DNA from: Hyphomicrobiales bacterium
GTDB taxonomy: Bacteria; Pseudomonadota; Alphaproteobacteria; Rhizobiales; Xanthobacteraceae
Direction: 5' to 3'
NCBI GenBank assembly: GCA_017305535.1
Contig: JAFKKN010000002.1
Span: 248,001 to 312,000, forward strand
DNA length: 64,000 nt
This document shows, piece by piece, positions 16,496 through 44,697 of the stretch (its first letter is position 1; each line of letters begins with the position of its first letter). The position numbers were made by a program, and so were the translations under genes. The notes under the pieces were generated by a model. The model ran no database searches and had not been told where the DNA came from. It was given only the letters and a program-made list of their open reading frames with translations.

Positions 16496-16498
16496 TAT

Positions 16499-17894: not shown

Positions 17895-17938
17895 CCCGCG
17901 CTCCTTTCAGAAATCTTTCTTACGGATAGCCCGCACGC

Positions 17939-19099
17939 TCAGATGGAAAGGCCTCGCTTCAGAAGATCTCGCGCGATCGCGACACGATGAATTTCCGAGG
18001 TGCCGTCCAGAATGCGCTGGACCCGAGCATCGCGATACAGCCGCTCCACGGGCATTTCGCTGCAATAGCCCATGCCGCCGAATATCTGGATCGCCTTGTC
18101 AGTCACGCGTCCGAGCATTTCCGACGCGAACAGTTTCACCATGGAGATTTTGGCGCGCGGCTCGCGCCCCTGATCGATATCCCACGCGGCATTGAGCACC
18201 ATCGAGCGCGCCGCGTAGATATCCACGGCCATATCCGCCAGCATGGCCTGGATCATCTGGAAATTGGCGATCTCTGTTCCGAATTGCTTGCGCTCATTGG
18301 CGTATTCGAGGCTCATCTGTAGCGCCCGGCTCGCCATGCCGACGGCGCGCGCCGCCACCGCGCGCAACCGCTGCCGGTTTCCGGTGCCCAGAGCCAGCGC
18401 CATACCATCGCCTTCCTGACCAAGACGCTGCTCCGGCGACAGACGAACGTTGTTGAAGAACAGTTCGCAATGGCTGAGCCCGTGCAAACCCATCAGCCGT
18501 TGCTCGCGACCGACGGTCACGCCCTCGGCGTCCCGGTCCACGAGAAACAGGGAGATGCCCTTATGCCCCTTGCCCGGATCGGTCAGGGCGGTCACCATGA
18601 AAGCGTCGGCGACGTTGGCATCGGAGATGAAATGCTTCGAGCCATTGAGAACATAACCGTCGCCGGCGCGCGCGGCGATGGTCTTGATGCCAGCGGCATC
18701 AGAGCCCGCGCTGGCTTCCGACATGGCGAAGGCGACGATGATATCCCCCGCCACCGCCGGCAGCAGATACTTCTCGCGTTGTGCATCGGAGCAGCTCATC
18801 AACGTCGCGGGAACCGCGCCGAACGCTCGCCGCACCAGAACGTCCGACGTCCACCCGAACTGCTCCTCGACCAGACACATGTCCACCATGCTGAGCCCGC
18901 CGCCTCCGACCGAAGCCGGCATGTCCATCGCATAGAGGCCCAACGCTCGCGCTTTGTCGCGTATCGACCTGGCAAGATCCAGCGGGACTGCTTCTTGTTC
19001 ATCGACGGCCTGCTCAACGGGCCGCAATTCGGAATCGATAAATCGCCGCACCGTCTCGATGACTTGAAGCGTCTCTTCGGGAACTGAGAAATCGATCAT
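17939..19099 (-). CDS. Acyl-CoA dehydrogenase family protein (Asp at the catalytic-base position)
   Basis: A 386-residue acyl-CoA dehydrogenase with FAMSEASAGSDAAGIKT, LNGSKHFISDANVADAF and the C-terminal IFGGMGYCSEMPVERLYRDARVQRILDGTSEIHR. The catalytic Glu of short/medium-chain enzymes is replaced by Asp (LDGTSEI), as in some other sub-families of this fold. It lies 79 bp downstream of the amidase gene on the same strand, so it may be the third gene of the maleate isomerase-amidase unit of the heterocycle cluster, or may be independent. Substrate unknown. Confidence 0.88.
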   Translation of the reverse strand: MIDFSVPEETLQVIETVRRFIDSELRPVEQAVDEQEAVPLDLARSIRDKARALGLYAMDMPASVGGGGLSMVDMCLVEEQFGWTSDVLVRRAFGAVPATLMSCSDAQREKYLLPAVAGDIIVAFAMSEASAGSDAAGIKTIAARAGDGYVLNGSKHFISDANVADAFMVTALTDPGKGHKGISLFLVDRDAEGVTVGREQRLMGLHGLSHCELFFNNVRLSPEQRLGQEGDGMALALGTGNRQRLRAVAARAVGMASRALQMSLEYANERKQFGTEIANFQMIQAMLADMAVDIYAARSMVLNAAWDIDQGREPRAKISMVKLFASEMLGRVTDKAIQIFGGMGYCSEMPVERLYRDARVQRILDGTSEIHRVAIARDLLKRGLSI

Positions 19100-19178
19100 C
19101 GTGCAGCTTGCCTTTCCGATAAGCAGAATGCATCGCCGCGCTGTCCGAATGTACGCGGCATGAAATTCTCGAACACTG

Positions 19179-20492
19179 TCAACTTTCCTTACACGCTTCC
19201 GCGCTATCGCTTGACAACATAATCTTCGCGATCATTCGCGCATGAGCCAGAATTGCATTGTCACTTCCTCTCCCTGCGATGAGTTGGAGACCAAGCGGCA
19301 GACCTCCCCGCACACGCGGCAGAGGAAGGGTCAGGCAGGGCACGTGAAGCATCGTCCATGCGCTGTTGAAAACGGGATCGCCAGTGCCCCGCTCGAACAG
19401 AGGCGCCTCTCCCGGCGCCGCCGGCATCAACAGAATGTCGTCACTCGCGAGCACACGATCGAGCCGCGTTCGCTCCGCATTACACTCCGCCTGCGTGTCC
19501 TCATAGAGCAGCCGATCGATCCCAGCTCCCGACTGAACGAGAGCGCGAAGCTCTGGCCCGACGCCTTGAGACTGCCGCGCGGTCAGCGACGCGTAATGCG
19601 CGTGCACCTCATAAGCCAACAGCGTATAGTGGAGACGCGACCACCTCTCGTAGCAATCGGTCAGATCCAACGGGTCACACGCGACGCCGGACGATATCAG
19701 CTTGGCCTTCACGTCGGAGAGCGCGTCGAACGCACCGGGATGGGCTTCATCAAGCCCCGACAACTCTCCGATCAGAATACGCGGCGCACGGCGGGAGGGA
19801 GCGAATTCGTCGCGCGTCGGGATAAGCGCCTCGAATACGCTTCGAGCGTCGTCGACGTCCCGCGAGAATATTCCGATCGTATCAAGCGAGGGTGCAAGCG
19901 GCCGCACGCCGGTCATATCGATCAGGCCGTAGGTCGGCTTGAATCCCACCACGCCGCAAAACGCCGCCGGCCGAATCGTCGACCCGGCTGTCTGCGTTCC
20001 GATCGCGACCGGCACCATGTGATCCGCAACCGCTGCGGCCGATCCACTCGACGAGCCGCCCGGGGTCCGACGACTGTCGTGAGGATTGCGGGTGCGGGAA
20101 GGTCGCAGGTAAGCGAACTCGGTGCTGACCGTTTTTCCCGGAACAATCGCTCCCTGCTTGCGCAGCCGCGCCACAATGTGCGCGTCGGCCTCGGGCCGAT
20201 GCCCCGCATAGAGCCGCGAGCCATATGTCGTCGGCATGTCGGAGGTGTCGATGACATCCTTGATCCCGATTGGAACGCCGGCCAGCGGTCGATCGTATCC
20301 GTCACGATCGACAACCCGGGCCGCGGCGAGGGCCTGATCGGGAGCAAGATACTCCCACGCCATGACCCCCGCTTCACGGGACCTGATCCGGGAGAGGCAG
20401 TCTCGTAGCACCCTTTCCGCCGTCAGATCACCCGCGGCAAACCGGGAGCGTAATTCGCCGATGGTTGCACCGCGCTGAGCGTCCGCCGCCAT
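19179..20492 (-). CDS. Amidase-signature-family amidohydrolase (cluster amidase 1)
   Basis: A 437-residue amidase-signature enzyme. The Lys-Ser-Ser triad is visible: Lys in GVPIGIKDVIDT (residue 78), cis-Ser in TPGGSSSGSAAA (residue 147/148) and nucleophile Ser in GTQTAGSTIRPAAFCG (residue 171). It hydrolyses C-N amide bonds. It starts 12 bp after the maleate isomerase stop. In pyridine catabolism an amide (maleamate) is hydrolysed to maleate just before the isomerase acts, so maleamate or a formyl-amide is a fair candidate substrate. Known maleamate amidases (NicF) are a different family, so this would be a non-homologous replacement. That role is inference. Confidence 0.87.
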   Translation of the reverse strand: MAADAQRGATIGELRSRFAAGDLTAERVLRDCLSRIRSREAGVMAWEYLAPDQALAAARVVDRDGYDRPLAGVPIGIKDVIDTSDMPTTYGSRLYAGHRPEADAHIVARLRKQGAIVPGKTVSTEFAYLRPSRTRNPHDSRRTPGGSSSGSAAAVADHMVPVAIGTQTAGSTIRPAAFCGVVGFKPTYGLIDMTGVRPLAPSLDTIGIFSRDVDDARSVFEALIPTRDEFAPSRRAPRILIGELSGLDEAHPGAFDALSDVKAKLISSGVACDPLDLTDCYERWSRLHYTLLAYEVHAHYASLTARQSQGVGPELRALVQSGAGIDRLLYEDTQAECNAERTRLDRVLASDDILLMPAAPGEAPLFERGTGDPVFNSAWTMLHVPCLTLPLPRVRGGLPLGLQLIAGRGSDNAILAHARMIAKIMLSSDSAEACKES

Positions 20493-20504
20493 TCGCCGCC
20501 TGCC

Positions 20505-21254
20505 CTAGTATCGGCCGGACAGAATGGCACCGGCGTCCGGCACCGCCGCATGCAACCCGAGCCGCTTCAGCATCTCGTGAACCGTGCAGGTTGCGGCGGA
20601 AACCACCGGCTTGCCGAGCTTGGCTTCGAGGGGAGCGATCGAGGCGAGCGAAGGCATCTGAACGCAAGCCGACGCGACCACCACGTCCGCGCCATCGACG
20701 TTCAGCCCATCGACAATATCGATCAGGGCGCGCGGATCACGCTCGCCCACCGCCATGTTGTCCGGAATCTCAAGGGAGAGCGCGTCGATGACCTCGATAC
20801 CCTCGTTTTCAATATAGCTCTTCACCAGCGCGGTGAGCGGCTTCATATAGGGCGTCATGATGGCAACCCGGCGCGCGCCCATTGTCTTCAGGCCGGACAC
20901 CAGGGCGCCAGCACTGCTCACGATTTCCGCCCTGGAGCCTTCACTCGCCGCCACGCTGCGTAGCCGCTCCTCGGATGTTCGATGATAGCCGTTGCCCATG
21001 CTCATGATGGCCACGAGACAGGCATACCCCATGACATCCACCTGCGCATCGGACAGCTCCAGCGCGCAGCGCTCCGCTTGCGCGTTCATCTGCTCGAGTT
21101 CTTCCTTCGTCACGCTCTTCATTCGCATCCGGCTCGAATGATAGGTGAAGCGCTCCGGCGCCGTCGCTTCGCGCGCCCGGAACATCGCCGGAATCTCCGT
21201 CTCCATGGTGATGTTCGAGCTGGGAACGATCTGCCCGATCCGAAACGCACGCAT
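20505..21254 (-). CDS. maiA: Maleate cis-trans isomerase
   Basis: A 249-residue Asp/Glu-racemase-fold enzyme very like characterised maleate isomerases. The N-terminus RIGQIVPSSNITMETEIPAM, the first catalytic Cys in GYACLVAIMSMG (Cys79), the segment PYMKPLTALVKSYIENEG and the second Cys in SACVQMPS (Cys197) all match. It converts maleate to fumarate, the last step of the nicotinate and picolinate routes before the TCA cycle. I chose the ATG at 21254 because the family begins there and CGGAG lies about 8 bases upstream. It is divergent from the marR gene, and a palindromic operator lies in between. Confidence 0.93.
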   Translation of the reverse strand: MRAFRIGQIVPSSNITMETEIPAMFRAREATAPERFTYHSSRMRMKSVTKEELEQMNAQAERCALELSDAQVDVMGYACLVAIMSMGNGYHRTSEERLRSVAASEGSRAEIVSSAGALVSGLKTMGARRVAIMTPYMKPLTALVKSYIENEGIEVIDALSLEIPDNMAVGERDPRALIDIVDGLNVDGADVVVASACVQMPSLASIAPLEAKLGKPVVSAATCTVHEMLKRLGLHAAVPDAGAILSGRY

Positions 21255-21322
21255 CAAAAACTCCGCAAGGTTGGCAAGGACGTCCTCGCACGGGACACCG
21301 CTTGGCATATCGATGCCGCTTC

Positions 21323-21346
21323 ATATCATACGTGTACGTACAATGT
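21323..21346 (-). promoter_or_regulatory. Cluster operator, copy A (maiA/marR)
   Basis: Minus-strand ATTGTACGTACACGTATGAT within a 24-bp imperfect palindrome that ends in ATAT. It aligns without gaps to copies B, C, D and E. Proposed binding site of the MarR regulator encoded 240 bp away. Confidence 0.65.
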
Positions 21347-21462
21347 AAACCGGTCGCGATTTCCAAATCCGGCAAATCGCCGGCCTGAATATCGCCAATC
21401 CGCGAATATTTCCGCTCCCGGGGCGGACCGCTTCAGAAACAACGCACCGCGCATTATCCGTT

Positions 21463-21486
21463 TGGACATATGTGTACAAACAAATT
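21463..21486 (+). promoter_or_regulatory. Weak cluster-operator match in the marR promoter
   Basis: GTGTACAAACAAA matches the right half (GTATACAAGCAAT) of the cluster palindrome; the left half is poor. About 100 bp before the marR start. It may be a low-affinity autoregulatory site or chance. Confidence 0.3.
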
Positions 21487-21588
21487 GGGGGTGGCCGCCG
21501 TGCCTGCGATACTGTAATGCACATCAGGCAGGGACTTCCGTCGCGCAACGGGGTCGCTGCCGGCGAAATTGTCACCGGGAAGCCAGAA

Positions 21589-22050
21589 ATGCCGCCTCGA
21601 AAGAAAGCCGCTCGACCACAGAAAACAAATCCCTCGAAGAGTCCTTACATGCTCGAGCAACAGGTCGGCTTCCTGCTTCGCGCCGCACTGCGACGACACA
21701 CGGTTATTTTCACCGACCAGATGGTCGAGGGATTGACCCCACCGCAATTCTCGGTCCTGGCCAAGCTGCTCGAAGCAGGGCCTCTTTCGCAGAATTTTCT
21801 GGGACGGCTGATCAATTCCGATTCATCCACGATCAAGGACATCGTCGATCGGATGGAATCCCGGAATCTGGTCGAGACCAATCCGGACCCATCCGATCTG
21901 CGCCTGCGATCGGTGAAGCTGACCAGCAAGGGGAAGGCTCTGGCGGAAGCCGCCATCGGCGTCGGCAGTCAGATCACCGAAGATACACTGGCGCCGCTCA
22001 CACCGGCCGAACGGTTGGTGATCGTGGATATTCTTCAGAAGCTGTCATAG
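21589..22050 (+). CDS. MarR-family regulator, NicR/PicR-like
   Basis: A 153-residue winged-helix protein. After a basic leader comes PYMLEQQVGFLLRAALRRHTVIFTDQMVEGLTPPQFSVLAKLLEAG, then the recognition region SQNFLGRLINSDSSTIKDIVDRMESRNLVE and the wing PDPSDLRLRSVKLTSKG. The wording of the N-terminal helix and DNA-binding region resembles NicR/PicR, MarR repressors of nicotinate and picolinate pathways. I placed the start at 21589 because the family begins shortly before the YMLxxQVGF helix. It is divergent from maiA. It is the best candidate for the factor that binds the palindrome found five times in the cluster promoters. Confidence 0.88.
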   Translation: MPPRKKAARPQKTNPSKSPYMLEQQVGFLLRAALRRHTVIFTDQMVEGLTPPQFSVLAKLLEAGPLSQNFLGRLINSDSSTIKDIVDRMESRNLVETNPDPSDLRLRSVKLTSKGKALAEAAIGVGSQITEDTLAPLTPAERLVIVDILQKLS

Positions 22051-22067
22051 GCTTCCTCGGACAATCC

Positions 22068-23165
22068 TCATCCCTGATCAAGTATGACGGCCAGGCGCTC
22101 CACGCCATCGGCAACTGCGTCGATGGCGGAATCGGTGGAAGCCTGGACAAAAGCATCGGCGTGACAATTCTCGCGCTCGACCTTCAAGGCATGAAGCTTC
22201 GACATGCATGTCTCGACCATAATCGGCGGGCCTGCCAGATAGGCCTTCGCATTGGCGACGGGCAGATCGAATGCTTCGAGAACGTCGGCGAGATTGCCAT
22301 AGAGACGCGAACGCGACCCGGCGCCGCAGCGGGACAGCACCGTTGCCGCCCGAAGCGTCGGATACGTGACCTGCAACATGGCGACCTCGCGTTCGTAATA
22401 GACATCGGCTTCGTCGCGAACGCCATGTAACAAAATCGCGGCCCGATCAGGAATCTGGCGAAGAGCAGCCGTCAGTACCGAGAGGACCGGCGCCAATCCC
22501 GATCCGCCCGCAAGACAGATGATCGGGCCATCGTGTGCCGCGCGAAGATACGACGCCCCGAACGGGCCATCGATCTCGATCGCATCGCCTGTCGAAAGCT
22601 TATCGAACAGATATGTCGACAGTCGTCCGCCGGGAACCTTGCGAACATGAAACTCGACATAAGGGTCCGAAGACTGGCTCGCCATCGAGTAGGGACGCGA
22701 GGGGAGACCTTCAATGCAGAGATTCGCCGATTGGCCCGACGTGAACTGAAACGGGTCGTCCTCGGGCTGGGCAAGGCGAATGCGGACGATGTCATGGGTC
22801 AGCCGATCCACCGCCGTGACCGTCAACATCATCCGTCTCCGCGGCTGTGGCGGCGGCGGATCATCAGCGTCAAGCCATGCAATCTCGATATCGGCGCGCG
22901 CCATCGCGCGACACGCGAGCACCATACCGCGTTGACGATCCGCATCGCTCAGCGCCAGCGGAGAATGCGGTAGCATTTCGACTTGTCCTTGCAAGAGCAC
23001 ACTCTTGCAAGCACCGCAGACACCCGATTCACAACCGCATGGATAGTCGATGTCGTTGCGTTGCGCGAGATCGAGAATGGTTTCCGATCCGTCCGACGCG
23101 AGCGTGACGCCGGCTTGCGTCAACGTGACATTGAAGCGCCGAGACACTGATTGATCCGTGGTCAT
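22068..23165 (-). CDS. Rieske oxygenase reductase component (ferredoxin-FAD-NAD, class IB type)
   Basis: A 365-residue electron-transfer protein with domains in order: N-terminal plant-type [2Fe-2S] ferredoxin (CGCESGVCGACKSVLL near residue 43, last Cys in VLACRAM), FAD domain with RPYSMAS, and NAD domain with CLAGGSGLAPVLSVL. It takes electrons from NADH to the ferredoxin centre and on to an oxygenase; this order is that of benzoate-dioxygenase-type reductases. The likely partner is the Rieske protein encoded at 39.2 kb. I chose 23165 (AGGGAG upstream); a longer frame to 23378 would run through the operator at 23251. Convergent with marR. Confidence 0.9.
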   Translation of the reverse strand: MTTDQSVSRRFNVTLTQAGVTLASDGSETILDLAQRNDIDYPCGCESGVCGACKSVLLQGQVEMLPHSPLALSDADRQRGMVLACRAMARADIEIAWLDADDPPPPQPRRRMMLTVTAVDRLTHDIVRIRLAQPEDDPFQFTSGQSANLCIEGLPSRPYSMASQSSDPYVEFHVRKVPGGRLSTYLFDKLSTGDAIEIDGPFGASYLRAAHDGPIICLAGGSGLAPVLSVLTAALRQIPDRAAILLHGVRDEADVYYEREVAMLQVTYPTLRAATVLSRCGAGSRSRLYGNLADVLEAFDLPVANAKAYLAGPPIMVETCMSKLHALKVERENCHADAFVQASTDSAIDAVADGVERLAVILDQG

Positions 23166-23250
23166 TTTCACTCCCTGCCGAACATCGCGACAACGATCCC
23201 GCGACGCATTGCGAGAATCGCTCGCCGCAGCCGCTTGTCGCGTCAACCGA

Positions 23251-23274
23251 CGTTTGCTAGTATACGTACAATCG
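23251..23274 (-). promoter_or_regulatory. Cluster operator, copy B (reductase/coxG)
   Basis: Minus-strand ATTGTACGTATACTAGCAAA, same alignment as copies A, C, D and E. It lies in the promoter shared by the divergent reductase (86 bp to start) and coxG (125 bp to start) genes. Confidence 0.65.
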
Positions 23275-23398
23275 ACGATCTGAAAAGTTTTTTCTTCGGC
23301 GAACGCTGCGCGCGTTGCCGCCGCAACGCGCAGCCGCGCCGTGACCACGCGGCCGGCATCGGATCGTGGTTTCATCATCTCTAATGGAGGAAACTTAT

Positions 23399-23869
23399 AT
23401 GCAGATCACCGGCGACTATCAGCTCGCTGCTTCACCCGAAAACGTATGGCGCGCGATCCACGATGACATCGTGCTCCAGCGCTGCATCCCCGGCTGCAAA
23501 TCGATCGAGCGGCTGTCGGAAGATCAATTGCGGGCTGTCGTGACGACCAAGGTCGGACCGGTCAGCGCCACACTCAAGGGGCTGATCACGTTCTCCGAGC
23601 AGACTCCGCCCAAGAGCCTTTATCTGACGGGTTCCGGCGACGGAGGGATTGTCGGTTTCGCCAAAGGCGGCGCGCGCGTGACGCTGGAGGCCGTGCCGGA
23701 TGGCACGCATCTCAACTATGAGATCGATGTCGCGATCGGCGGCAAGCTCGCGCAGCTCGGACAGCGCCTGCTCGCCGGCACGGCGAAGAAGAATTCCGAT
23801 ATCTTCTTCAGCAATCTGGTCGCTTACTTCAACGAGAGTATCGCTGCGACAGAAGCCGTGCTGAAGTAA
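23399..23869 (+). CDS. coxG: CoxG-like SRPBCC protein
   Basis: A 156-residue START/SRPBCC-fold protein of the CoxG family: ITGDYQLAASPENVWRAIHDDIVLQRCIPGCKSIERLSEDQL at the N-terminus, then KVGPVSATLKG and a helical C-terminus LAQLGQRLLAGTAKKNSDIFFSNLVAYFNE. In CO dehydrogenase clusters CoxG anchors the molybdenum enzyme to the membrane; relatives accompany many molybdenum hydroxylases. GGAGG lies 8 bases before the ATG at 23399. Here it is separated from the hydroxylase subunits by 9 kb but shares the operator type, which supports a joint function. Confidence 0.85.
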   Translation: MQITGDYQLAASPENVWRAIHDDIVLQRCIPGCKSIERLSEDQLRAVVTTKVGPVSATLKGLITFSEQTPPKSLYLTGSGDGGIVGFAKGGARVTLEAVPDGTHLNYEIDVAIGGKLAQLGQRLLAGTAKKNSDIFFSNLVAYFNESIAATEAVLK

Positions 23870-23877
23870 CCCGGATA

Positions 23878-23913
23878 GCGCAACCGCACGATGAAAGGGA
23901 CGTGCGGTTGCGC
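23878..23913. terminator. Hairpin between convergent coxG and FAD monooxygenase genes
   Basis: GCGCAACCGCACG and CGTGCGGTTGCGC form a perfect 13-bp stem with a 10-base loop, 8 bp after the coxG stop. No long T-run, but the position between convergent genes fits a bidirectional terminator. Confidence 0.7.
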
Positions 23914-23926
23914 CGTTCGACGACGA

Positions 23927-25135
23927 TCAACCCAGCTCCGCGGCTCTTTCGAGACTTCTGATCATCGATATCCGAAGCAGAAACTCCCGCGACTTTGCCG
24001 CGTCGGCGGCCGTCTCCCGCATTTCCTCGCAGTAACGGCGATGTTCCGCGTCCGTCGCCGCCTCGAGATTTCGCTTGTTCTCGATAGTTTGCTTCTGCAC
24101 GTGCTCCAGCGTGACGAGGCGTCGCTCGCGATCATAACCATCGAGCACATTTTCATCGAGTTCGGAATGCCAGACGCCGGCAAGCCGGTTCGTCAGGCTG
24201 AATGCGTCGTGGATTCCGCCATTCATTCCCATCCCGCCGAGAGGATTGTTGATATGGGCCGCATCGCCCGCCAGGAATACCCGATCGCGTCTGAAGGATG
24301 AAGCAACCCGTTGATGCACCCGATAGAGCGTCAGATGAAGGATCGCCGACTGTCCGGCGCCCGGCGCAATTGATTCCAGTTGTCGGGTCGCGAATGCTTC
24401 GCTAAGCGCGACATCATCCGGCAGCTCAGAATCCACCGGCACCATCGCTCGCCACATTCCGGGAATCCGAAGGAGGAAAAACCACTGTCGGGGATCAGCG
24501 ACGTAAGTAACCGATGCCAGATCCGGATAAGCCGACCGGAAATCGAATGGTGTCGAAATGACAAGAAACCGCTCGGGCCATGTGAACCCTTCAAACTCGA
24601 GACCGACCGACTTTCGCACCGCGCTGCGCGCGCCATCCGCGCCAATCAGCCAACGTCCGGTCCGCTCGATGGTCGCCCCGTTCGGCTGCTCGACCTGAAC
24701 CCGGACGCCGCCGTCGATTTGCTCGACGCGGTTCACAGCCTGATTGAATTCAATCTGAAAGTTGGAATTGGATTGATAGTGACGTTGAATGATTCGCGTG
24801 AGCTTGAACTGTTCGCTTTGAAGTCGATAGGGGTGGCCCGTCATATCGGCGATATCGCCGAAGTCGAATTGCGCGACGGCACCGAACGACTTCGAGCGAT
24901 ACTGCACCGAGGGAGCCTTGAGCCCCTCCTTGATCAGATCGTCGGCCACGCCGAGCTTATCAAGCATATCGAGCGTCGGCGGATGAAACGTCGAGGCTCG
25001 GGACTCGCTGCTGAGCGTCGGCGACGCCTCGAACACCGTAACCGGCACACCCCGCATGGCGAGGTTGGCGGCCGCCACCATGCCGATCGGCCCCGCGCCG
25101 GCGACAAACACACGATCTTCAACTGACATCTTCAT
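23927..25135 (-). CDS. FAD-dependent aromatic monooxygenase (group A, PHBH fold)
   Basis: A 402-residue flavin monooxygenase. Motifs in order: dinucleotide fold VAGAGPIGMVAAANLAMRG (residue 10 on), the DG motif LIGADGARSAVRKSVG, and the GD motif VFLAGDAAHINNPLGGMGMNGGIHDAFSL. Such enzymes hydroxylate electron-rich rings with NAD(P)H and O2, e.g. 6-hydroxynicotinate or 6-hydroxypicolinate in pyridine routes. Its exact substrate is unknown. It is on the same strand as the CoA-transferase gene, 51 bp downstream, and is probably the last gene of the long importer operon. No thioredoxin-like C-terminal domain is present, unlike the phenol-hydroxylase type. Confidence 0.88.
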   Translation of the reverse strand: MKMSVEDRVFVAGAGPIGMVAAANLAMRGVPVTVFEASPTLSSESRASTFHPPTLDMLDKLGVADDLIKEGLKAPSVQYRSKSFGAVAQFDFGDIADMTGHPYRLQSEQFKLTRIIQRHYQSNSNFQIEFNQAVNRVEQIDGGVRVQVEQPNGATIERTGRWLIGADGARSAVRKSVGLEFEGFTWPERFLVISTPFDFRSAYPDLASVTYVADPRQWFFLLRIPGMWRAMVPVDSELPDDVALSEAFATRQLESIAPGAGQSAILHLTLYRVHQRVASSFRRDRVFLAGDAAHINNPLGGMGMNGGIHDAFSLTNRLAGVWHSELDENVLDGYDRERRLVTLEHVQKQTIENKRNLEAATDAEHRRYCEEMRETAADAAKSREFLLRISMIRSLERAAELG

Positions 25136-25186
25136 GATCCCCGGCGGAGCTCTTGCCCGGTCTGCCCGAGCATTACTCCGATCAAA

Positions 25187-26392: not shown

Positions 26393-26498
26393 GACTGTCT
26401 CTGGTTAATGGAGAAAAAGGAATCGGATGGGACGACCCGGCTCAACAGGACGGAAACGAAACTGCTGTTGCCTGTTGCAACATCGGCGAACCGTCTCA

Positions 26499-27701: not shown

Positions 27702-27773
27702 ATCTCACCCTGGGTTCGAATCTCGCACCGCGGCGTGACGCGGGCGAGATCGGAAATCCCTCGCCCGGCGGTC

Positions 27774-28922: not shown

Positions 28923-28943
28923 CGGCTCTATCCTCCCCTCATA

Positions 28944-35512: not shown

Positions 35513-35573
35513 ATGTCATCCCTCACAGACTTAACACCCCGACGACAGAAATCGTCCGCTTGCGCGAACGTCG

Positions 35574-36434: not shown

Positions 36435-36588
36435 GTTTTCCCGTCCTGACTTCGTGGAGTTGCACGTCAATCATTTCCACAACCCGTTTGACCAACGGCC
36501 GGCGCGGGCCGCGCTCCGCGAGATTTGATCATCAAGGCGCGATATCAGGCAAGCGCCTTCGATCGCACCCCGCGTCTGCGGCCGTCCT

Positions 36589-37608: not shown

Positions 37609-37649
37609 GGTGCATACCTCTGTTCAGGACAAATCGGGCGCGGCAAAGT

Positions 37650-39098
37650 TCACGCGAAGGACGGCGGCGCGACAAAGCCCCGGTAACAACGCTCGAGCAT
37701 GGCGGCGAAGGCGATACAGCGGAGATCGTGCCCCTGCGGGCCGATCACCTGCATGCCGATGGGAAGACCCTCGCCGGACAATCCGAGCGGCGTCACCGTC
37801 GACGGCAGATGAGCGAGCGCGGAGAATCCGACCCAGAACATCTGATCCGTCGCGGCAACGACATCGCCGTCGATTCGGATCGTCTGCTCCCAGCGCTTGC
37901 TGACATGATCGTGAGGCGTTGCAGGCGTGCTGCTCGCCGGACAGATCAAGAAATCCCACGACTGGAAGAACTCGGCCCAGGTCCGGCGCATCCGGTGACG
38001 CGTTTCATCGGTGCGAAACCAGTCGCGATGGCTCATGAGTTCCGCCCGCGCCGACTCGATTCGATAATTCGACTCGTCGGCCGTTACGCCGTCGAGAAAT
38101 TGCCTGGCCGCCTGAGCGGCCTCGTCGGTCAGCCCCGCCGACCCGGCCGCGCGAAGCAGCCGGAGGAATGTGAGTGTGGCCTGCTCAGGATCGAGCGCCG
38201 GCGCGGTCTCCTGCACGTGCGCTCCACGATCCGACAGAAACGTCGCAACCCTTTGAAGCTGCGCCCGGGTCTCGGCATCGACCCGCGCGGTCGGCGAATC
38301 CAGCATGACGGCGATCCGCAGATCGGCGAAGCCGCGCTGCTTCATAGGCGGCGGCGTCAGCGCCCAACAACCCCTGTCGAGCGAGTCAGGCCCGGCCATG
38401 ACGCCGAGCACCAATGCGAGATCGTCCGCCGTCCGCGCGATCGGACCGAGCGTCGACAAATCTCGCGGCGCGATGGCGCCGCCAAGTTCGTGCCCGGTCT
38501 GCGGCACGATGCCGTGCGTCGGACGATGACCGTAGACGCCGCAATAATGCGCCGGCACCCGCAACGAGCCCGCCGAATCGCTTCCCGCCTCGAAGGCGAC
38601 AAGTCCCGCCGCCACCGCCGCCGCGCCGCCACCGCTCGAGCCACCGGGCGTCCGGCCCGGATCCCATGGATTGTTGGTGCAGCCGTAAATGACGTTGTAG
38701 CTCTGCCAGTCCGCGAGATGGATCGGAACGTTGGATTTCCCGAAGATGACCGCGCCTGCCGCCTTGAGACGCTCGACCACCAGCATGTCGCGGTCCACCA
38801 GACGTCCCGCGAGGTGCGGCATCCCACGCGTCGTCGCGAGGCCCGCGACGTTGTAGGATTCCTTGACCGTGATCGGCAGTCCGTGAAGCGGCCCCCATAG
38901 TTCTCCGCGCGCCAGCGCCGCATCGGCCGCGTCGGCGTGTGCTCTCGAGCGATCGATGTCCTTCACCACGATGGCGTTGACGGTCGGATCGATCGCGTCC
39001 AGCCGCCGCAAATAGAGATCGAGCAGCTCGCGACACCCGATCCGCTTTTCCCGGATATCGAGCGCCAATCGCGCTGCGGAGCTGAATGCATAATCCAT
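37650..39098 (-). CDS. Amidase-signature-family amidohydrolase (cluster amidase 2)
   Basis: A 482-residue amidase-signature enzyme with Lys79 in LPITVKESYNVAG, cis-Ser in TPGGSSGGGAAAV (154/155) and nucleophile Ser178 in AGSDSAGSLRVPAHYCG. The nucleophile loop reads SAGS instead of the commoner xGGS. I chose the ATG at 39098 (AAGG about 11 bases before); 39140 is possible. It follows the Rieske gene and precedes the NicX-like gene, so it probably acts on the ring-opened amide. Having two amidases under the same operator type suggests two C-N cleavages, such as deformylation and deamidation. Confidence 0.87.
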   Translation of the reverse strand: MDYAFSSAARLALDIREKRIGCRELLDLYLRRLDAIDPTVNAIVVKDIDRSRAHADAADAALARGELWGPLHGLPITVKESYNVAGLATTRGMPHLAGRLVDRDMLVVERLKAAGAVIFGKSNVPIHLADWQSYNVIYGCTNNPWDPGRTPGGSSGGGAAAVAAGLVAFEAGSDSAGSLRVPAHYCGVYGHRPTHGIVPQTGHELGGAIAPRDLSTLGPIARTADDLALVLGVMAGPDSLDRGCWALTPPPMKQRGFADLRIAVMLDSPTARVDAETRAQLQRVATFLSDRGAHVQETAPALDPEQATLTFLRLLRAAGSAGLTDEAAQAARQFLDGVTADESNYRIESARAELMSHRDWFRTDETRHRMRRTWAEFFQSWDFLICPASSTPATPHDHVSKRWEQTIRIDGDVVAATDQMFWVGFSALAHLPSTVTPLGLSGEGLPIGMQVIGPQGHDLRCIAFAAMLERCYRGFVAPPSFA

Positions 39099-39186
39099 CG
39101 AGCGAGCCTTCACGATTTCAGGTTGATCGATTTCGCGCATGCATGCTTGCGCCGCCCCGCTTGCGCATGGCGGCGCAAGTCGCGCG

Positions 39187-40332
39187 CTATCCTTTGAATC
39201 CGGCGGGATCGCGGTCACCCAGAACGCGCCGAATGTGAGCATTGAGGAAGTTGTGCGCGGGCTTTTCCATCAGCGACATCCGCCCCGGAACGAACAGATC
39301 GGACGCCAGCGACTGTTGCAGGCTGTCGATCATCGTCAGGTCCTCGCCCAGCACGGCGTCCTGCCACTCCGAATAACGCTTCTCTTTCTCGCGAAGCTCG
39401 GGATCGAGCAGCGTTTCCGGCGGATACAGATTGTAACTGACCCAACGGCACTGCGTCAGCGACACCGGCCACAGCACGATCGGCCGAACGCTGTCCGAGC
39501 GGCCGAACAGCAACAGGTTCGGCGGCCGAATCCCGAGCGACGCGAAGGACTCGCCGCGATCCTCCAGCCATGGAATCGGCTTGTAGAGCGACTTCCCGCC
39601 GAACACGTTGGGCGCCGACTTATAGAAAACCGAATAGCCGCCGTCCTTCTTGAGCGAGGTGCCCTTGTCGTGCGCCCACTCGAAGCCCGTCTTCGCCAGC
39701 GTGTTCTCGTGCAGGACCGGCACGTGGTAAAAATCCATCAGGTTTTCGACCACGAGCTTCCAGTTGCAGTTGACGATGCGCTCGCGCTTGCCTCCGAGAC
39801 ACAAATCTCCGAGCCGCAAGAATCCAAAATCCTTCTCGAACTCGGCGATGAAGTCGGCGAATGATGGCGGATTGGAATCGAAGCAGATGAAGATGTTTCC
39901 TGCCCATTCGGACAGCGCCACCTCCTGCAAACTACACTTGCTCGGATCGAACCCTTCGATTCCCTCCATGCCGGGAGCGCCCTTCAGCCGACCGCCCAGA
40001 TCGTAGGTCCAGCCATGATAGGGGCAGACAAACGCCTTGGTGTTGCCCGCACCGCTGGCGATCGCTGCGCCACGATGAATGCACGCGTTGATAAACGCGC
40101 CGAGCTTGCCCTTCTTGTCGCGGCATACGACGACCGGCTCACCAAGAATCGATGTGGTCATATAGTCGCCCGGCGAGCTGACCTCCTCCACGCGCGCGAC
40201 CAGAAGCCATTCCTTGAGAAAGACGTTCTTCTTCTCGAGGTCAAAAAATTCCTGGGACGCATAGACATACTTCGGCGCATGGCTCGCAGCCTCAATCGGC
40301 TTGTTGATCTGGAGACTATCCTGACGCCCCAT
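39187..40332 (-). CDS. Rieske non-heme iron oxygenase, alpha subunit
   Basis: A 381-residue ring-hydroxylating or demethylating oxygenase. Rieske ligands are Cys84/His86 in NACIHRGAA and Cys103/His106 in VCPYHGWTYDLGG. The mononuclear iron site is in NWKLVVENLMDFYHVPVLHE (His203, His208). It adds oxygen to an aromatic or N-heterocyclic substrate using electrons from a reductase, most likely the class IB reductase at 22.1 kb. No beta subunit gene is nearby, so it may be an alpha-only oxygenase. First gene of a minus-strand operon through the molybdenum hydroxylase; the operator lies 33 bp before its start. Confidence 0.9.
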   Translation of the reverse strand: MGRQDSLQINKPIEAASHAPKYVYASQEFFDLEKKNVFLKEWLLVARVEEVSSPGDYMTTSILGEPVVVCRDKKGKLGAFINACIHRGAAIASGAGNTKAFVCPYHGWTYDLGGRLKGAPGMEGIEGFDPSKCSLQEVALSEWAGNIFICFDSNPPSFADFIAEFEKDFGFLRLGDLCLGGKRERIVNCNWKLVVENLMDFYHVPVLHENTLAKTGFEWAHDKGTSLKKDGGYSVFYKSAPNVFGGKSLYKPIPWLEDRGESFASLGIRPPNLLLFGRSDSVRPIVLWPVSLTQCRWVSYNLYPPETLLDPELREKEKRYSEWQDAVLGEDLTMIDSLQQSLASDLFVPGRMSLMEKPAHNFLNAHIRRVLGDRDPAGFKG

Positions 40333-40364
40333 CTTGACCCTCTCAATTATCTATCGACCAATCG

Positions 40365-40388
40365 ATATTGTACGTATACAAGCAATAT
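40365..40388 (+). promoter_or_regulatory. Cluster operator, copy D (Rieske operon/CoA ligase), the most symmetric copy
   Basis: ATATTG and CAATAT arms flank TACGTATACAAG; 9 of 12 half-site positions are symmetric. It sits between the divergent Rieske gene (33 bp) and CoA ligase gene (90 bp) and likely overlaps at least one promoter. Confidence 0.68.
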
Positions 40389-40477
40389 GACCAACCTTAG
40401 TCAAGGACTAATTCCAGAGTAGCGACCTCAGACTCTCCTCATCACCCTTGAAATGATGGATTCTGAAGCGATATCTC

Positions 40478-42187
40478 TTGATGAAACAGGAGTCCGTCAT
40501 GCACCTCACCGGCCATATCAACCGTGTACAAGCGATATCCTCGGCGCGGATTCCTTCGTCCGAACGGACGCTCAATCATCTCTGGGAAAAGCGACTCGGC
40601 CTCTCGCCGCGGCAACCGTTTCTCGCGTTCGAAAGCGGCACGTACGAAACATTCGAGGAAACCGACGCACGGATCAGGCAACTGGCCGGCATGCTGATCG
40701 CGGCCAGCGTCAGAAAGGGCGATCGCGTGGTTATCTTTGCGCCAAACAGCCTGACCCCGATCCATGCGTGGATGGCCATCAACTTCATCGGCGCCGTCGA
40801 CGTCCCGATCAATCCATCGTTGCGTGGGCTACCGCTGGAGCATGCGATCAATCTGACGCAAGCCAAGCTGATTTTCGCCGAGGATTCCTGCCTCCCCGCG
40901 CTTCACGAATGCGAAGCCCGGCTCGACACCACCGACGTCCTGTTCTTTGCCGGACCGTCCGCCGTCCAGCCTCCGCCGACCTTCGCACGTCTGCGCGTAC
41001 GGCCTCTGACCGCGTTATCCGCAAGTGCCGACATCGGTATCGAGGCCGCCGCGCCCGGCGACCTGGCATCCATCATGCTGACATCCGGAACATCCGGACC
41101 TTCGAAAGGCGTGATGATTTCGCACGCCCAGGCCTTCATCGCGGCACAACAGGTGGTGGACGGACTACGCCTCGGCGCGGACGACATTCATTATTGCTGC
41201 CAGCCGCTGTTTCATATGTCGCCGCGTTATTTTGCCGTCTATGCCGGCCTGCTCGCCGGAACGCGGGTCTGGATCGACCGCGCGTTTCAGGCGCACCACT
41301 GGATCGATCGCATCAGGACCTCGAAGGCGACCGTGACGATCGGGCATGGGCCGTTGTTGGAAATGATCTTCGATCAGCGCCGTCGGGACGACGACAATGA
41401 CAATCGCCTGACGCGAATCGCCGCCGCGCCGTTTCCCAAGCATATCGCCGATGATTTCGAACGCCGCTTCGAGGTCAAGGGAATCGAGGCATGGGGGATG
41501 ACGGAAATCGGAATGCCGTGCTGGACTCCCTATGACGAGCCGCGTCGCGTCGGCTCATGCGGGTATGTCCGCGCGGATTTCTATGACTTCGCGGTCCTCG
41601 ATCCCGATACCGACGAGCAACTGCCGCCCGGCTCGGTCGGTGAGTTCGCCGTTCGTCCTCGGCAGCCCTGGATCATCAGTCCGGGCTATTTCAACGATGC
41701 ATCCGCCACGCAGCGAAGCTGGCGCAATCTCTGGTTTCATACCGGAGACGCAGGTTACATCGACGCCGATGGCTGGGTTTACTTTGTTGATCGCCTGAAG
41801 GATCGCATCCGGCGGCGCGCGGAGAACATCTCGTCCTACGACATCGAAGTCGCAGCCGCCCGCTTTCCTCGCGTGAAGGAATGCGCCGCCGTGGGCGTTC
41901 CCTCGTCCTACAGCATGGATGACGACATCAAGCTGTTCGTCGTCCCCGACGCAGGCCACGATCCAGATCCGTTATCCCTGCTTCGCCATATCGGCCGCCT
42001 GGTGCCGCATTACATGGTGCCGCGCTTCATCGCATTCGTCGATCAATTGCCGCGAACGCCGACCCAGAAGATTCGGCGCGCCGCGCTTCGTCAGGAACAG
42101 GACCCGGAGCGGACCTGGGATAGAAAATCCCTCGGACAATCGCTTCGCCAGCTTTTGGAGGAGCCGACAACGATCGATCAGGCGTGA
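40478..42187 (+). CDS. AMP-dependent acyl-CoA ligase of the heterocycle cluster
   Basis: A 569-residue (or 562 from the ATG at 40499) adenylate-forming enzyme. P-loop MLTSGTSGPSKGVMISH near residue 197, AWGMTEIGMPCW (A5), WFHTGDAGYIDADGWVYFVDRLKDRIRRRAENISSYDIE (A7-A8) and a C-terminal PRTPTQKIRRAAL with the catalytic Lys. It activates a carboxylic acid as CoA ester. The wording resembles crotonobetaine/carnitine-CoA ligases (CaiC-type). It is the only rightward gene of this segment and its N-terminal codons overlap a second operator-like palindrome. The acid could be the imported substrate or a side-chain product. Confidence 0.88.
   Translation: MMKQESVMHLTGHINRVQAISSARIPSSERTLNHLWEKRLGLSPRQPFLAFESGTYETFEETDARIRQLAGMLIAASVRKGDRVVIFAPNSLTPIHAWMAINFIGAVDVPINPSLRGLPLEHAINLTQAKLIFAEDSCLPALHECEARLDTTDVLFFAGPSAVQPPPTFARLRVRPLTALSASADIGIEAAAPGDLASIMLTSGTSGPSKGVMISHAQAFIAAQQVVDGLRLGADDIHYCCQPLFHMSPRYFAVYAGLLAGTRVWIDRAFQAHHWIDRIRTSKATVTIGHGPLLEMIFDQRRRDDDNDNRLTRIAAAPFPKHIADDFERRFEVKGIEAWGMTEIGMPCWTPYDEPRRVGSCGYVRADFYDFAVLDPDTDEQLPPGSVGEFAVRPRQPWIISPGYFNDASATQRSWRNLWFHTGDAGYIDADGWVYFVDRLKDRIRRRAENISSYDIEVAAARFPRVKECAAVGVPSSYSMDDDIKLFVVPDAGHDPDPLSLLRHIGRLVPHYMVPRFIAFVDQLPRTPTQKIRRAALRQEQDPERTWDRKSLGQSLRQLLEEPTTIDQA
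40515..40538 (+). promoter_or_regulatory. Operator-like palindrome inside the start of the CoA ligase gene
   Basis: ATATCAACCGTGTACAAGCG followed by ATAT matches copy D at about 17 of 24 positions, including both ATAT ends. It is centred 150 bp from copy D, inside codons 13-21. It could assist repression by looping or block elongation. Confidence 0.42.
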
Positions 42188-42237
42188 TCGGAGATTTTAT
42201 CCGCACCACCACGAGGCGGCGGCGCAATTCCGGAACG

Positions 42238-42684
42238 TCAGGCCGCATCCCGATCGGGGATGACCTTGAGAATATGACGCGCCGACAGCACGACGTCGCC
42301 ATGCTGGTTGCGGCCCGACACATCGGAGACGATCCGCGCGCGGTCGCGATCGAACTCGGCCGCCCGGTAGTCGATGGTCACGGTATCGCCGAGCATCACC
42401 GGCTTGATGAAACGGACCTTGTCGTAACCGAGCGAGGCGCCCGTCACGCCGAATTTCGCGGCGAACATCCACACCGCCGCCGACGACAGGCCAAGGACCA
42501 GCACGCCCTGCGCGATGCGTCCGCCATACTCCGTGCCTTTCATGTAGTTTTCGTTGACATGATTTGGGCTGAGATCGCCGGTGATCCCGGCGAACAGACC
42601 AACATCGGATTCGGTGACGGTCTTGGTCCAAGAAACGCCATCGCCGGCGGCAATCGACTGGAATACCTTCTCGACGTAGTTCAT
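42238..42684 (-). CDS. MaoC-like (R)-specific enoyl-CoA hydratase/dehydratase
   Basis: A 148-residue hot-dog-fold protein. The hydratase-2 motif is visible: TESDVGLFAGITGDLSPNHVNENYMKG contains the catalytic Asp and His, followed by GGRIAQGVLVLGLSSA. It hydrates 2-enoyl-CoA or dehydrates the product. I chose the ATG at 42684, where homologues begin. It is the third gene of the DUF2848-cupin-MaoC unit and convergent with the CoA ligase, whose product may be its substrate. Confidence 0.85.
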   Translation of the reverse strand: MNYVEKVFQSIAAGDGVSWTKTVTESDVGLFAGITGDLSPNHVNENYMKGTEYGGRIAQGVLVLGLSSAAVWMFAAKFGVTGASLGYDKVRFIKPVMLGDTVTIDYRAAEFDRDRARIVSDVSGRNQHGDVVLSARHILKVIPDRDAA

Positions 42685-42743
42685 CGTCCTTGTTTCCTTG
42701 CCATCATGGTGGCTTTCCGTTCGCGCTGAATCGCGGCCTGAAC

Positions 42744-43121
42744 TCAAGCGTCTCCGAAGTAATGGATTTCCAGCAACAGGCATCCGCCTTCGGATTTGAA
42801 CGGCCCGTGATAAGCGCCGGGCGGCCGACAGGCATAGGTCGGCCCTTGGTAAGACTCGCCGCCGTTGCCGCTGGCGTCGTTACCGACGACGAGATCGCCG
42901 GACACCAGGAAGACTTCTTCCCAATAGGTATGAACGAACGGCGCGGTGGTGTAGACGCCCGGCTCGAACGACAGCAGACGGGTTCGATGGCCCTGTCCGT
43001 TCGGCTCATCGAGACGCCCAGCAAGAATCTTTTGCTTGATGCCCGACGGATATCCGGGCGGCGTTTCCCAGCCTTCATCCATGTTCAAGCGATGAAACTC
43101 GAGATGCGGCTTGAATGTCAT
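42744..43121 (-). CDS. Small cupin-domain protein
   Basis: A 125-residue single-domain cupin. The first metal motif is in PFVHTYWEEVFLVSGDLVVG (His...Glu), the second in RPPGAYHGPFKSEGGCLLLEIHYF. Cupins of this size may be dioxygenases, isomerases or hydrolases; without a closer match the function cannot be named. It lies between the DUF2848 gene (18 bp) and the MaoC gene (59 bp) on the same strand and thus probably belongs to the cluster's operator E unit. Confidence 0.8.
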   Translation of the reverse strand: MTFKPHLEFHRLNMDEGWETPPGYPSGIKQKILAGRLDEPNGQGHRTRLLSFEPGVYTTAPFVHTYWEEVFLVSGDLVVGNDASGNGGESYQGPTYACRPPGAYHGPFKSEGGCLLLEIHYFGDA

Positions 43122-43139
43122 GATCGGAACGTCCCTGAG

Positions 43140-43856
43140 TTAGTCCTGGATCGGAAGCATATCGACGAGATAACGGTGGTTGAGGGTTCGCTTGAGGACC
43201 GGGTCGCATAGCTCCACCTCAAGCTGATCCGCATATTGAAATTCGCCGTGAACGGGCACCGTTCCGCAGAACATCACGGCCCCGGACTCGAACACGCCCC
43301 CCTCTTGCCGAAACCTCGCGATCAAATCGGACGGCGCGTGCAGGGTGGAAACGCTGCCCTGCTGGTACAGGCGGCGCGCACCGCCTGCATGGACATACGA
43401 GCGCAGCTCCAGTCTGTCCCAATGCGGCTCGACCTCCTCGAGGCGCCAGAGCATCGTCCCGATCGGCTTCGCGCAAACCTGCTTCGAGATCGTGACGCCG
43501 ACGGCCTCGAGTTTGCGATCGGTGTGATCGGAACCGACCCCGACCCATAACTGGCCCTCCGACCGCAGGATCACAGCCTCGACTTCTCCGCTCGAGGTTT
43601 CTCCGACAACCTGGATCGTCGGCGCCGTCGTCAGCAATGACGAGGCCACCTTGTAGAACAGAGGTGTTTTACGCGGAGGCCTGACTCCCAACGCTTCCAG
43701 TTCACGGATATGGGCTTGAACCGAGTCGCGATCGCGCCCCGCCCATCCGGCAATGACGAGATTGCACGGCCTGAAGGAGATGCCTTCGCCGCTCTGGTCC
43801 GTCTCAACGAAGAAATCGAGGACCGAGTCTCGCAGGCATGTCGTCGACGTCATCAT
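43140..43856 (-). CDS. DUF2848 family protein
   Basis: A 238-residue protein of the DUF2848 family: FRPCNLVIAGWAGRDRDSVQAHIRELEALGVRPPRKTPLFYKVASSLLT is followed by VVGETSSGEVEAVIL, LWVGVGSDHTDRKLEAVGVTISKQVCAKPIGTMLWRLEEV and HWDRLELRSYV. No function is established that I know of; the fold may be related to fumarylacetoacetate-hydrolase-like proteins but I see no clear metal motif beyond SDHTDRK. GGGGG lies a few bases before the ATG. It is first in the operator E unit, so a role in the heterocycle pathway, e.g. hydrolysis of a ring-opened intermediate, is worth testing. Confidence 0.82.
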   Translation of the reverse strand: MMTSTTCLRDSVLDFFVETDQSGEGISFRPCNLVIAGWAGRDRDSVQAHIRELEALGVRPPRKTPLFYKVASSLLTTAPTIQVVGETSSGEVEAVILRSEGQLWVGVGSDHTDRKLEAVGVTISKQVCAKPIGTMLWRLEEVEPHWDRLELRSYVHAGGARRLYQQGSVSTLHAPSDLIARFRQEGGVFESGAVMFCGTVPVHGEFQYADQLEVELCDPVLKRTLNHRYLVDMLPIQD

Positions 43857-43909
43857 TCGATCCCCCGAGCCACGCACGACATCGATGCCCGTCTATCCGC
43901 TCAATATCG

Positions 43910-43933
43910 TCATTGTCCGTATACGTACGATAT
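43910..43933 (+). promoter_or_regulatory. Cluster operator, copy E (DUF2848-cupin-MaoC)
   Basis: ATTGTCCGTATACGTACGAT followed by AT, aligned without gaps to copies A-D; 54 bp before the DUF2848 start. Confidence 0.65.
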
Positions 43934-44419
43934 GTGTTAGTGTCAACAGATTCAAAAAACTCATGGGATCGACCGACCCACGCGGGCTCATCGACGGTGC
44001 CAGGTTTCCGTGTGTTCGACGCAGCCGATTGCTGTCGATCATTCACACGGTCGAGAAGCTGGGTCGGCCTGCAAAAACCGATCGCAACGAGGGCGCATCG
44101 CGGTGACCGCGCCGGAGTCCTGAATGCAGGTTGCGCTGGACCTTGCTCCCGACCAACGCCGCGCTTCGCGATGCCGCGGCTCGCGCCTTTAGCGGGTGAC
44201 GACGTCCCGAAAACCGAACCGCGAGGTCTCCAAATCCACCGTTCGGCCTGAACGCCGGCGACCACGCAATCAACCGGGCTGCCGATTGCTCACGTATCAT
44301 CACTACCCGATGAAACCCTCGCGCGTCGGGATGAAATTCAGCGCCGCGATAACCCATGGAACGATTATCCGGGCTGCCGAATGCGCCAATGTTGAACTTT
44401 CGGAAACTTGAGCGACCAC

Positions 44420-44438
44420 GGCAGAGGGGGAGGGATTC
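44420..44438 (+). repeat. Partial direct repeat of the tRNA-Ser 3' end (att-like)
   Basis: GGCAGAGGGGGAGGGATTC matches the tRNA-Ser end at 47712-47730 at 17 of 19 bases, in the same orientation. It may be the remnant of an integration site. Confidence 0.4.
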
Positions 44439-44697
44439 CGCCGACACACCTCACAGGCAATTGAAAAACAGGACCTTTCTCAACCGCCGACCTGACTTTG
44501 TGTCCCAACGAAATGTACTTAAGCCAACCCTTGAAATGTTGCCCATGATCTTCCGGGGGGCGCAGCGATGATTGGTCGAGTGAGTGAGATCGACGGAGCG
44601 TTGTTATGTACTGACCACAGTCGCCGTATCATCGGTTCCAATGACGCGGTCGCACGCGCAGACGCCTACTCCTGTCGAGACACCGCAGGAGGCGATC

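Follow-up and report, generated by a model that had tools for sequence, protein, structure and literature searches.

A 64,000-nucleotide stretch of a Hyphomicrobiales genome carries a gene cluster that may import and break down an N-heteroaromatic compound. Its central gene encodes NicXL, a putative ring-opening enzyme from what appears to be a sister family of NicX. The whole stretch of DNA that was analyzed, here called the window, is G000:C15:248001-312000 of the 4.73-Mb genome. NicXL recurs beside a Rieske oxygenase, in some loci together with a molybdenum hydroxylase. This set is a recurrent core, and the remaining enzymes of the cluster lie outside it. We give a probability of about one half to a single uptake-and-breakdown route that would run from Liv-type import through a molybdenum hydroxylase, the Rieske oxygenase and NicXL to amidases and a maleate isomerase.

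NicXL resembles NicX in its predicted fold. By plain sequence search, it has no match in Pfam or NCBIfam and no Protein Data Bank (PDB) match below E 0.38. An ordinary NicX relative likewise has no Pfam or NCBIfam match (best NCBIfam E 0.022), and the missing family match is therefore not a mark of novelty. Unlike NicXL, this ordinary relative matches the NicX structure by sequence (1.8e-80). The assignment of NicXL thus comes from a profile comparison and from the best match of an AlphaFold model. The profile comparison with the ordinary NicX relative gave 95.5% (E 1.5e-8). The model, built from 13 sequences, has a predicted local distance difference test score (pLDDT) of 89.4, and its top Foldseek match in the PDB is NicX (7cn3; E 5.1e-19, template modeling score [TM] 0.71, 18% identity). 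M29 aminopeptidases come next in the same search (TMq 0.57-0.65).

NicXL keeps part of the NicX iron site. Passages of PMC7910607 (PubMed Central [PMC]) give the iron ligands of NicX as His265, Ser302, His318, and Asp320, and place His189 in contact with the product. We aligned 36 proteins, comprising 15 NicXL and 21 ordinary NicX relatives. The ordinary set holds 19 of 39 loci chosen by eye, plus L041 and L004; we left out near-duplicates, fragments, repeat reads of one gene, and loci with no ordinary-NicX match. His265, His318, and Asp320 are kept in every NicXL (15/15; H255, H298, and D300 in the window protein), and all five residues are kept in every ordinary relative (21/21). Ser302, the fourth iron ligand, and the active-site His189 are found in 0/15 NicXL. 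Opposite Ser302, one alignment places Gly and the other places Pro or, once, Glu, so that the exact partner is unsure. The positions of NicX His105, Glu177, and Glu308 also differ between ordinary relatives and were left out as markers. NicXL has invariant residues of its own, His207 and Glu296, and a GGGENHPD motif. In the tree, NicXL and ordinary NicX are split at 100/100 support, although the program warned that long branches meet there. Together, sequence and model suggest a sister family of NicX, a putative metal enzyme with a two-histidine-one-aspartate site. The lack of Ser302 and His189, with which NicX binds iron and holds its product, makes plain 2,5-dihydroxypyridine a doubtful substrate. 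Thus, the “NicX-like” label of the initial annotation agrees with the predicted fold, the profile, and the metal-binding triad, but the protein is not an ordinary NicX.

NicXL relatives at 44-51% were detected in 14 loci. Two of these are on an Agrobacterium and a Variovorax plasmid. The other 12 are genome loci (3.5-21 kb), including Paraburkholderia xenovorans LB400, Azospirillum rugosum, and metagenome assemblies labeled alpha- and gammaproteobacterial, Burkholderiales, or actinobacterial. They were found by an alignment scan with two short peptide patterns, which surely misses relatives; a genome scan with P0001 alone gave no matches. There is no close copy of NicXL in 60 other genomes, which returned 12 weak matches (24-35% identity). 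The comparable ones among these are mostly ordinary NicX relatives, and two (L015 and L016) matched NicXL only. Among 398 genomes drawn from the phylum, strong matches are confined to G311, which has a broken copy, and the own genome. The remaining matches there are weak, reaching E 7.6e-9 at best with the profile, and ordinary NicX is the better match for each of the 12 loci compared. C-terminal pieces only of NicXL-like sequence occur on Cupriavidus plasmids (hits H3-H6) and at G311:C10:13018-13355. An ordinary-type NicX relative is encoded elsewhere in the own genome (G000:C1:542253-543050; L086), near an NMT1-type binding protein, and in five of the seven genomes of the same genus (congeners) that we compared.

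The Rieske gene accompanies NicXL in most loci. We compared the window proteins with the 14 loci by tblastn, counting L037 even though its contig is only 3.5 kb. In 11 loci, NicXL has a Rieske homologue (37-51% identity) no more than 3 kb away; Azospirillum rugosum is among the organisms that carry both genes. Judged by hit ends, the Rieske gene is directly upstream in eight (36-144 bases) and on the other side in three (154, 1020, and 2611 bases). As a control, with the best few candidates per genome scored, Rieske homologues at E<=1e-60 were found in 1/398 genomes, the own one. The 11/14 co-occurrence makes the pairing more than chance. It is not exclusive, as plasmids of Paraburkholderia fungorum and Acidovorax carolinensis carry Rieske relatives at 37-38% with no NicXL match. 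In four loci (L032, L034, L038, and L042), Rieske, NicXL, and the flavin adenine dinucleotide (FAD), 2Fe-2S, and molybdenum subunits are collinear with the window, with identities of 48-54%, 67-75%, and 52-55% for the three subunits, respectively. Liv genes lie upstream in L032, L034, and L038, and a CoxG gene follows the molybdenum hydroxylase in L038. The initial annotation had named a larger set to look for in other genomes; the core does recur, but the peripheral enzymes are not part of that recurrence.

The two partner enzymes have recognizable active sites or relatives. Rieske residues C84, H86, C103, H106, H203, H208, and D331 are invariant in an alignment of 13 sequences, which included a Rieske without NicXL (L091). 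They fit the C-x-H/C-x2-H cluster and the 2-His-1-carboxylate site, in which D331 would be an iron ligand. The ferredoxin-FAD-NAD reductase near 22 kb is the probable electron donor of this oxygenase. In the PDB, the large molybdenum subunit is closest to quinoline 2-oxidoreductase, then to CO dehydrogenase.

Other NicXL loci have gene sets of their own. L033 holds an acyl-coenzyme A (CoA) dehydrogenase, a CoA ligase, Rieske, NicXL, MaoC, and an HpcH/HpaI (citrate-lyase-type) gene together; neither a maleate isomerase nor CaiB was found in it. Four loci with no collinear molybdenum hydroxylase (L004, L035, L036, and L039) have an M20 amidohydrolase (a fragment in L036) and an alpha/beta-hydrolase in common, and L035 and L039 also carry a ferredoxin reductase and a flavin reductase. 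In L004 (Variovorax sp. SRS16 plasmid 3), the NicXL-Rieske-alpha/beta-hydrolase-M20 set lies a few kilobases from a separate ordinary NicX cluster with an alpha/beta-hydrolase, isochorismatase, FAD monooxygenase, SRPBCC protein, and molybdenum hydroxylase.

Family chemistry, from which we infer each reaction, their order, and the dioxygenase role of NicXL, outlines the proposed route. A Liv-type ATP-binding cassette (ABC) transporter would import an N-heteroaromatic compound, and the quinoline-oxidoreductase-like molybdenum hydroxylase would introduce oxygen at the ring carbon next to the nitrogen. The Rieske oxygenase, fed by its reductase, would add a second hydroxyl group. NicXL, as a metal enzyme of the NicX fold, would open the ring, the amidases would then release the nitrogen, and maleate isomerase would finish the C4 cis-dicarboxylate. 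The flanking genes (amidases, maleate isomerase, FAD monooxygenase, CaiB, ligase, MaoC, cupin, and DUF2848) may serve the same pathway. That one complete route leads to fumarate is a plausible proposal, and a substrate with an acid side chain is a guess. A more specific version, possible though rather unlikely, makes NicXL a new class of ring-fission dioxygenase, with a substrate produced by the dedicated Rieske enzyme, not a flavin enzyme, acting on a substituted, e.g., methyl-bearing, pyridone. Opening would then yield a methylated C4 acid, maleate isomerase would convert citraconate to mesaconate, and CaiB or the ligase, with MaoC, would proceed via mesaconyl- and citramalyl-CoA. We consider this version because the gene set of L033 fits it.

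At the DNA level, the core genes are unique among the congeners compared. The cluster lies in a roughly 30-kb region with no collinear counterpart in the seven congeners (hereafter, the island). On the right, congener DNA homology picks up again at 47709-47711, at the 3′ end of a tRNA-Ser(CGA) gene, in 7/7 congeners. On the left, 9766-17280 is collinear with one congener only (G004, 88%, of 7), and the match ends at 17280; this block holds Liv-type genes, an acyl-CoA dehydrogenase, a TetR gene, and an enoyl-CoA hydratase. Strong congener matches inside the island are scattered and 65-73% identical. From 17281 to 37000, the sole match at E<=1e-60 is the acyl-CoA dehydrogenase (69%, G002). From 37001 to 43900, at E<=1e-20, the matches are part of AmiB (67-69%, 6/7 congeners), part of the ligase (68%, G002), adjoining the acyl-CoA dehydrogenase relative, and cupin or cupin-DUF2848 (66-73%; G001, G003, and G004). 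The own genome has further relatives of AmiB, the ligase, the cupin, and DUF2848. No strong DNA match in the seven congeners covers the Rieske, NicXL, or molybdenum subunit genes, and any full-length match there to the large molybdenum subunit is at 41% or less. Thus, we found unique DNA bordered by a tRNA gene despite scattered single-gene relatives elsewhere in the genus, with uniqueness holding for the core genes (Rieske, NicXL, and molybdenum hydroxylase), not for the whole island. A search of the contig for a second tRNA end (att site), allowing 2 mismatches to the 25-base end, found none, and no integrase turned up among the scanned window open reading frames (ORFs). Remnants at 43.9-47.7 kb gave no plasmid match, and an isolated PAS-LuxR regulator (45453-46697) occupies lower-GC DNA that separates the cluster from tRNA-Ser.

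Scanning 38 distinct window ORFs against Pfam, together with a PDB match for the maleate isomerase (4fq7) and the profile and fold evidence for NicXL, confirmed the genes named in the initial annotation at their places. That annotation had not named the acyl-CoA dehydrogenase, the MarR-type regulator, the reductase, the CoxG/SRPBCC protein, the two binding proteins, the Fur-type gene, or the tRNA-Ser border. A run of predicted genes that begins with Rieske (40332) and ends with FAD monooxygenase (23927) is on the minus strand; the ligase, CoxG, and MarR genes are on the plus strand. The first 70-80 residues of the reductase may stem from a wrong start, and the real start of AmiB is possibly further downstream within the gene.

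Table 1. Features of the island and its borders (window coordinates).
Feature	Coordinates	Strand	Evidence or remark
Region without collinear counterpart in seven congeners (island)	17281..47710		Congener DNA comparison
Fur-type gene	17409-17894		Just outside cluster
Acyl-CoA dehydrogenase	17939..19099	-	Pfam; 69% DNA match in congener G002
Amidase-signature hydrolase AmiA	19179..20492	-	PF01425 3.2e-74; GGSSSG motif
Maleate cis-trans isomerase	20505..21308	-	PDB 4fq7 5.3e-94; Cys97 and Cys215 kept
MarR-type regulator	21472..22050	+	PF01047 2.5e-12
Ferredoxin-FAD-NAD reductase (BenC-like order)	22068..23378	-	
CoxG/SRPBCC protein	23366..23869	+	PF06240 4.2e-29
FAD monooxygenase, PnpA/HspB kind	23927..25135	-	PDB 6ain 1.3e-62, 7da9 2.4e-55
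CaiB-type CoA-transferase	25187..26392	-	PF02515 1.3e-107; no NCBIfam subtype above cut-off
Two periplasmic binding proteins	26499..28922	-	PF13458
Liv-type ABC transporter (two ATPases, two permeases)	28944..32308	-	Pfam
Molybdenum hydroxylase large subunit	32650..35055	-	PDB 1t3q 4.1e-162
Molybdenum hydroxylase 2Fe-2S subunit	35006..35512	-	Pfam
Molybdenum hydroxylase FAD subunit	35574..36470	-	Pfam
NicXL, NicX-fold enzyme, putative ring-cleaving dioxygenase of separate family	36589..37608	-	
Amidase-signature hydrolase AmiB	37650..39242	-	PF01425 2.2e-98; NF004816 571.9 bits vs cut-off 503
Rieske oxygenase alpha subunit	39187..40332	-	Pfam; conserved cluster and iron-site residues
AMP-forming acyl-CoA ligase	40478..42187	+	PF00501 3.5e-60; 68% DNA match in G002
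MaoC-type hydratase	42238..42783	-	PF01575 3.1e-18
Small cupin	42744..43121	-	Pfam score 26.1 bits, cut-off 27
DUF2848 protein	43140..43877	-	PF11010 2.7e-80
tRNA-Ser(CGA), right border of island	47711..47800	-	

Some peripheral genes belong to other recurrent sets. The two cysteines of maleate isomerase are catalytic. Those of the window protein align with the cysteines of 4fq7 (the second position is Ala in 4fq5), and by sequence its identity is secure. Six annotated homologues of the cupin on plasmids (60-71% identity) bear the name cupin in five cases and DUF4437 in one. The nearest plasmid relative of the FAD monooxygenase, in Bradyrhizobium sp. 187, adjoins DUF2848 and a cupin (62, 46, and 70% identity for FAD monooxygenase, DUF2848, and cupin, respectively); a CoA ligase on the opposite strand there is only 26% like that of the window. 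In Thioclava, Roseateles, and Caballeronia NK8, cupin and DUF2848 occur with an HpaB-type monooxygenase, a flavin reductase, an amidase, and Liv genes. This is a recurrent set (L092, L097, and L098). NicXL was not found in any of these four cupin-DUF2848 regions. DUF2848 also adjoins an amidase in Phyllobacterium, Paraburkholderia, and Caballeronia SL2Y3. A relationship of DUF2848 to fumarylacetoacetate hydrolase was rejected (profile comparison probability 0.1%, with the other profile made of two sequences only), and a single-sequence model of the protein was worthless (pLDDT 33). A DUF2848 scan of viral contigs gave no match, and we found no mention of DUF2848 in open-licence PMC literature.

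Several observations weigh against a single route. NicXL has lost Ser302 and His189. Three of the 14 NicXL loci have no Rieske (L003, L036, and L037), and 10 have no collinear molybdenum hydroxylase. Homologues of maleate isomerase, CaiB, FAD monooxygenase, or DUF2848 are absent at E<=1e-8 from the 12 genome loci, in which an amidase homologue occurs once (L038, 29%, ~6 kb from NicXL). Furthermore, the genus holds relatives of the amidase, ligase, acyl-CoA dehydrogenase, and cupin-DUF2848 elsewhere. Given these absences and the other contexts of the peripheral genes, the “complete route” of the initial annotation is no more than a plausible proposal. That annotation also held that unrelated genomic contexts would speak against its cluster; the peripheral genes, e.g., cupin-DUF2848, do occur without NicXL, and its idea is affected to that extent. 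The strongest rival is that two or more pathways share the island, Rieske-NicXL-molybdenum hydroxylase being one and FAD monooxygenase-cupin-DUF2848 (with amidase and Liv transporter) another, together with acyl-CoA genes. We regard this as a serious contender at somewhat less than even odds. It is favored by the genus-wide relatives of peripheral genes and by the Bradyrhizobium and HpaB-type sets. The ligase and acyl-CoA dehydrogenase relatives, 21 kb apart in the window, are adjacent in G002 (G002:C1:118558-120633), and those of cupin and DUF2848 are neighbors in G001, both without NicXL. However, the core shares its one-strand run with FAD monooxygenase and CaiB, and with ~18 kb between DUF2848-cupin and FAD monooxygenase, the second set has not stayed together as a unit. 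About 7-8 kb ahead of the cupin, Caballeronia NK8 has a ligase and a molybdenum-hydroxylase 2Fe-2S subunit (53%), which hints that sets of this kind can be combined.

The remaining rivals concern the reaction of NicXL and the class of the cluster. It is unlikely that NicXL is a metal-dependent, M29 aminopeptidase-like hydrolase that acts after another enzyme has opened or oxidized the ring. The rank of M29 aminopeptidases in the fold search, the family's own His207 and Glu296, and the loss of Ser302 and His189 are consistent with a hydrolase, but NicX is clearly the better fold match, the profile comparison gives a significant match to a NicX relative, and the two histidines and the aspartate are kept throughout. 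There is also no match to the Pfam family Peptidase_M29 even at E 5, with the proviso that HMMER filters drop weak matches. Quite improbable is a nic/pic-like route in which NicXL performs the ordinary 5,6-cleavage of 2,5-dihydroxypyridine, with amidase-signature enzymes in place of the deformylase and maleamate amidase. The cluster does have a maleate isomerase and an HspB-related FAD monooxygenase, and the picolinate and nicotinate routes share their steps from 2,5-dihydroxypyridine to fumarate, as outlined in passages of PMC10142695. Against this, the two residues that every NicXL has lost are kept in every ordinary relative, a single plasmid of Variovorax SRS16 carries NicXL together with an ordinary NicX cluster, and the own genome encodes an ordinary NicX relative at another place. 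An iad- or iac-type cluster for the degradation of auxin (indole-3-acetate) is hardly credible. Rieske, reductase, CoA ligase, a two-binding-protein transporter, and MarR recall the iad operon as portrayed in parts of PMC10374108 and PMC12633357. We rejected this reading because the scanned ORFs include no Rieske small subunit and no thiolase; a kynurenine-formamidase-type gene was not among them either, and the match to IadD (chain 9o71, 3.9e-29 over residues 21-221) is no better than those to naphthalene or benzene dioxygenases.

To our knowledge, few pyridine-ring-opening enzymes are known. A passage of PMC7910607 states that a DALI search gave no obvious homologue of full-length NicX. A sister family without the unusual serine ligand of NicX, mostly beside its own Rieske, would broaden the chemistry of N-heterocycle breakdown and provide a marker with which to detect such pathways in genomes.

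Comparison with known systems places the cluster near several of them. NicXL is like NicX in predicted fold and in two histidines and one aspartate of the iron site, but differs in its low identity, its lack of Ser302 and His189, its own His207 and GGGENHPD, and its separate branch. The island's large molybdenum subunit has quinoline 2-oxidoreductase as best PDB match; a CoxG-type protein nearby is a difference from that system. As in the riboflavin/lumichrome catabolism described in sections of PMC12746152, a xanthine-oxidase-type enzyme would be followed by a Rieske oxygenase on an N-heterocycle; in those sections, however, it is the Rieske enzyme that cleaves the quinoxaline ring, before an extradiol enzyme acts. 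The word NicX is absent from the main text of that paper. Judged by titles and abstract openings, we found no description of a cluster with Rieske and a NicX-like enzyme in open-licence PMC literature.

The nic cluster comprises a molybdenum hydroxylase, a second hydroxylation, NicX, and maleate isomerase. In nic and pic, the deformylase is an alpha/beta-hydrolase and the maleamate amidase is of the isochorismatase type. No isochorismatase, alpha/beta-hydrolase, or amidohydrolase decarboxylase was found among the scanned ORFs, in agreement with the initial annotation, and two amidase-signature enzymes are present instead. The island shares with nic and pic the molybdenum hydroxylase, the second hydroxylation, a NicX-fold enzyme, and maleate isomerase (for pic, in passages of PMC10142695). 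It differs by having NicXL for ordinary NicX plus a Rieske oxygenase, and by adding CoA ligase, CaiB, MaoC, cupin, and DUF2848. These comparisons support the view of the initial annotation that this is an N-heteroaromatic catabolic cluster of another kind: by its genes, the island appears to work with the logic of molybdenum hydroxylase and NicX, but differs from both nic and pic.

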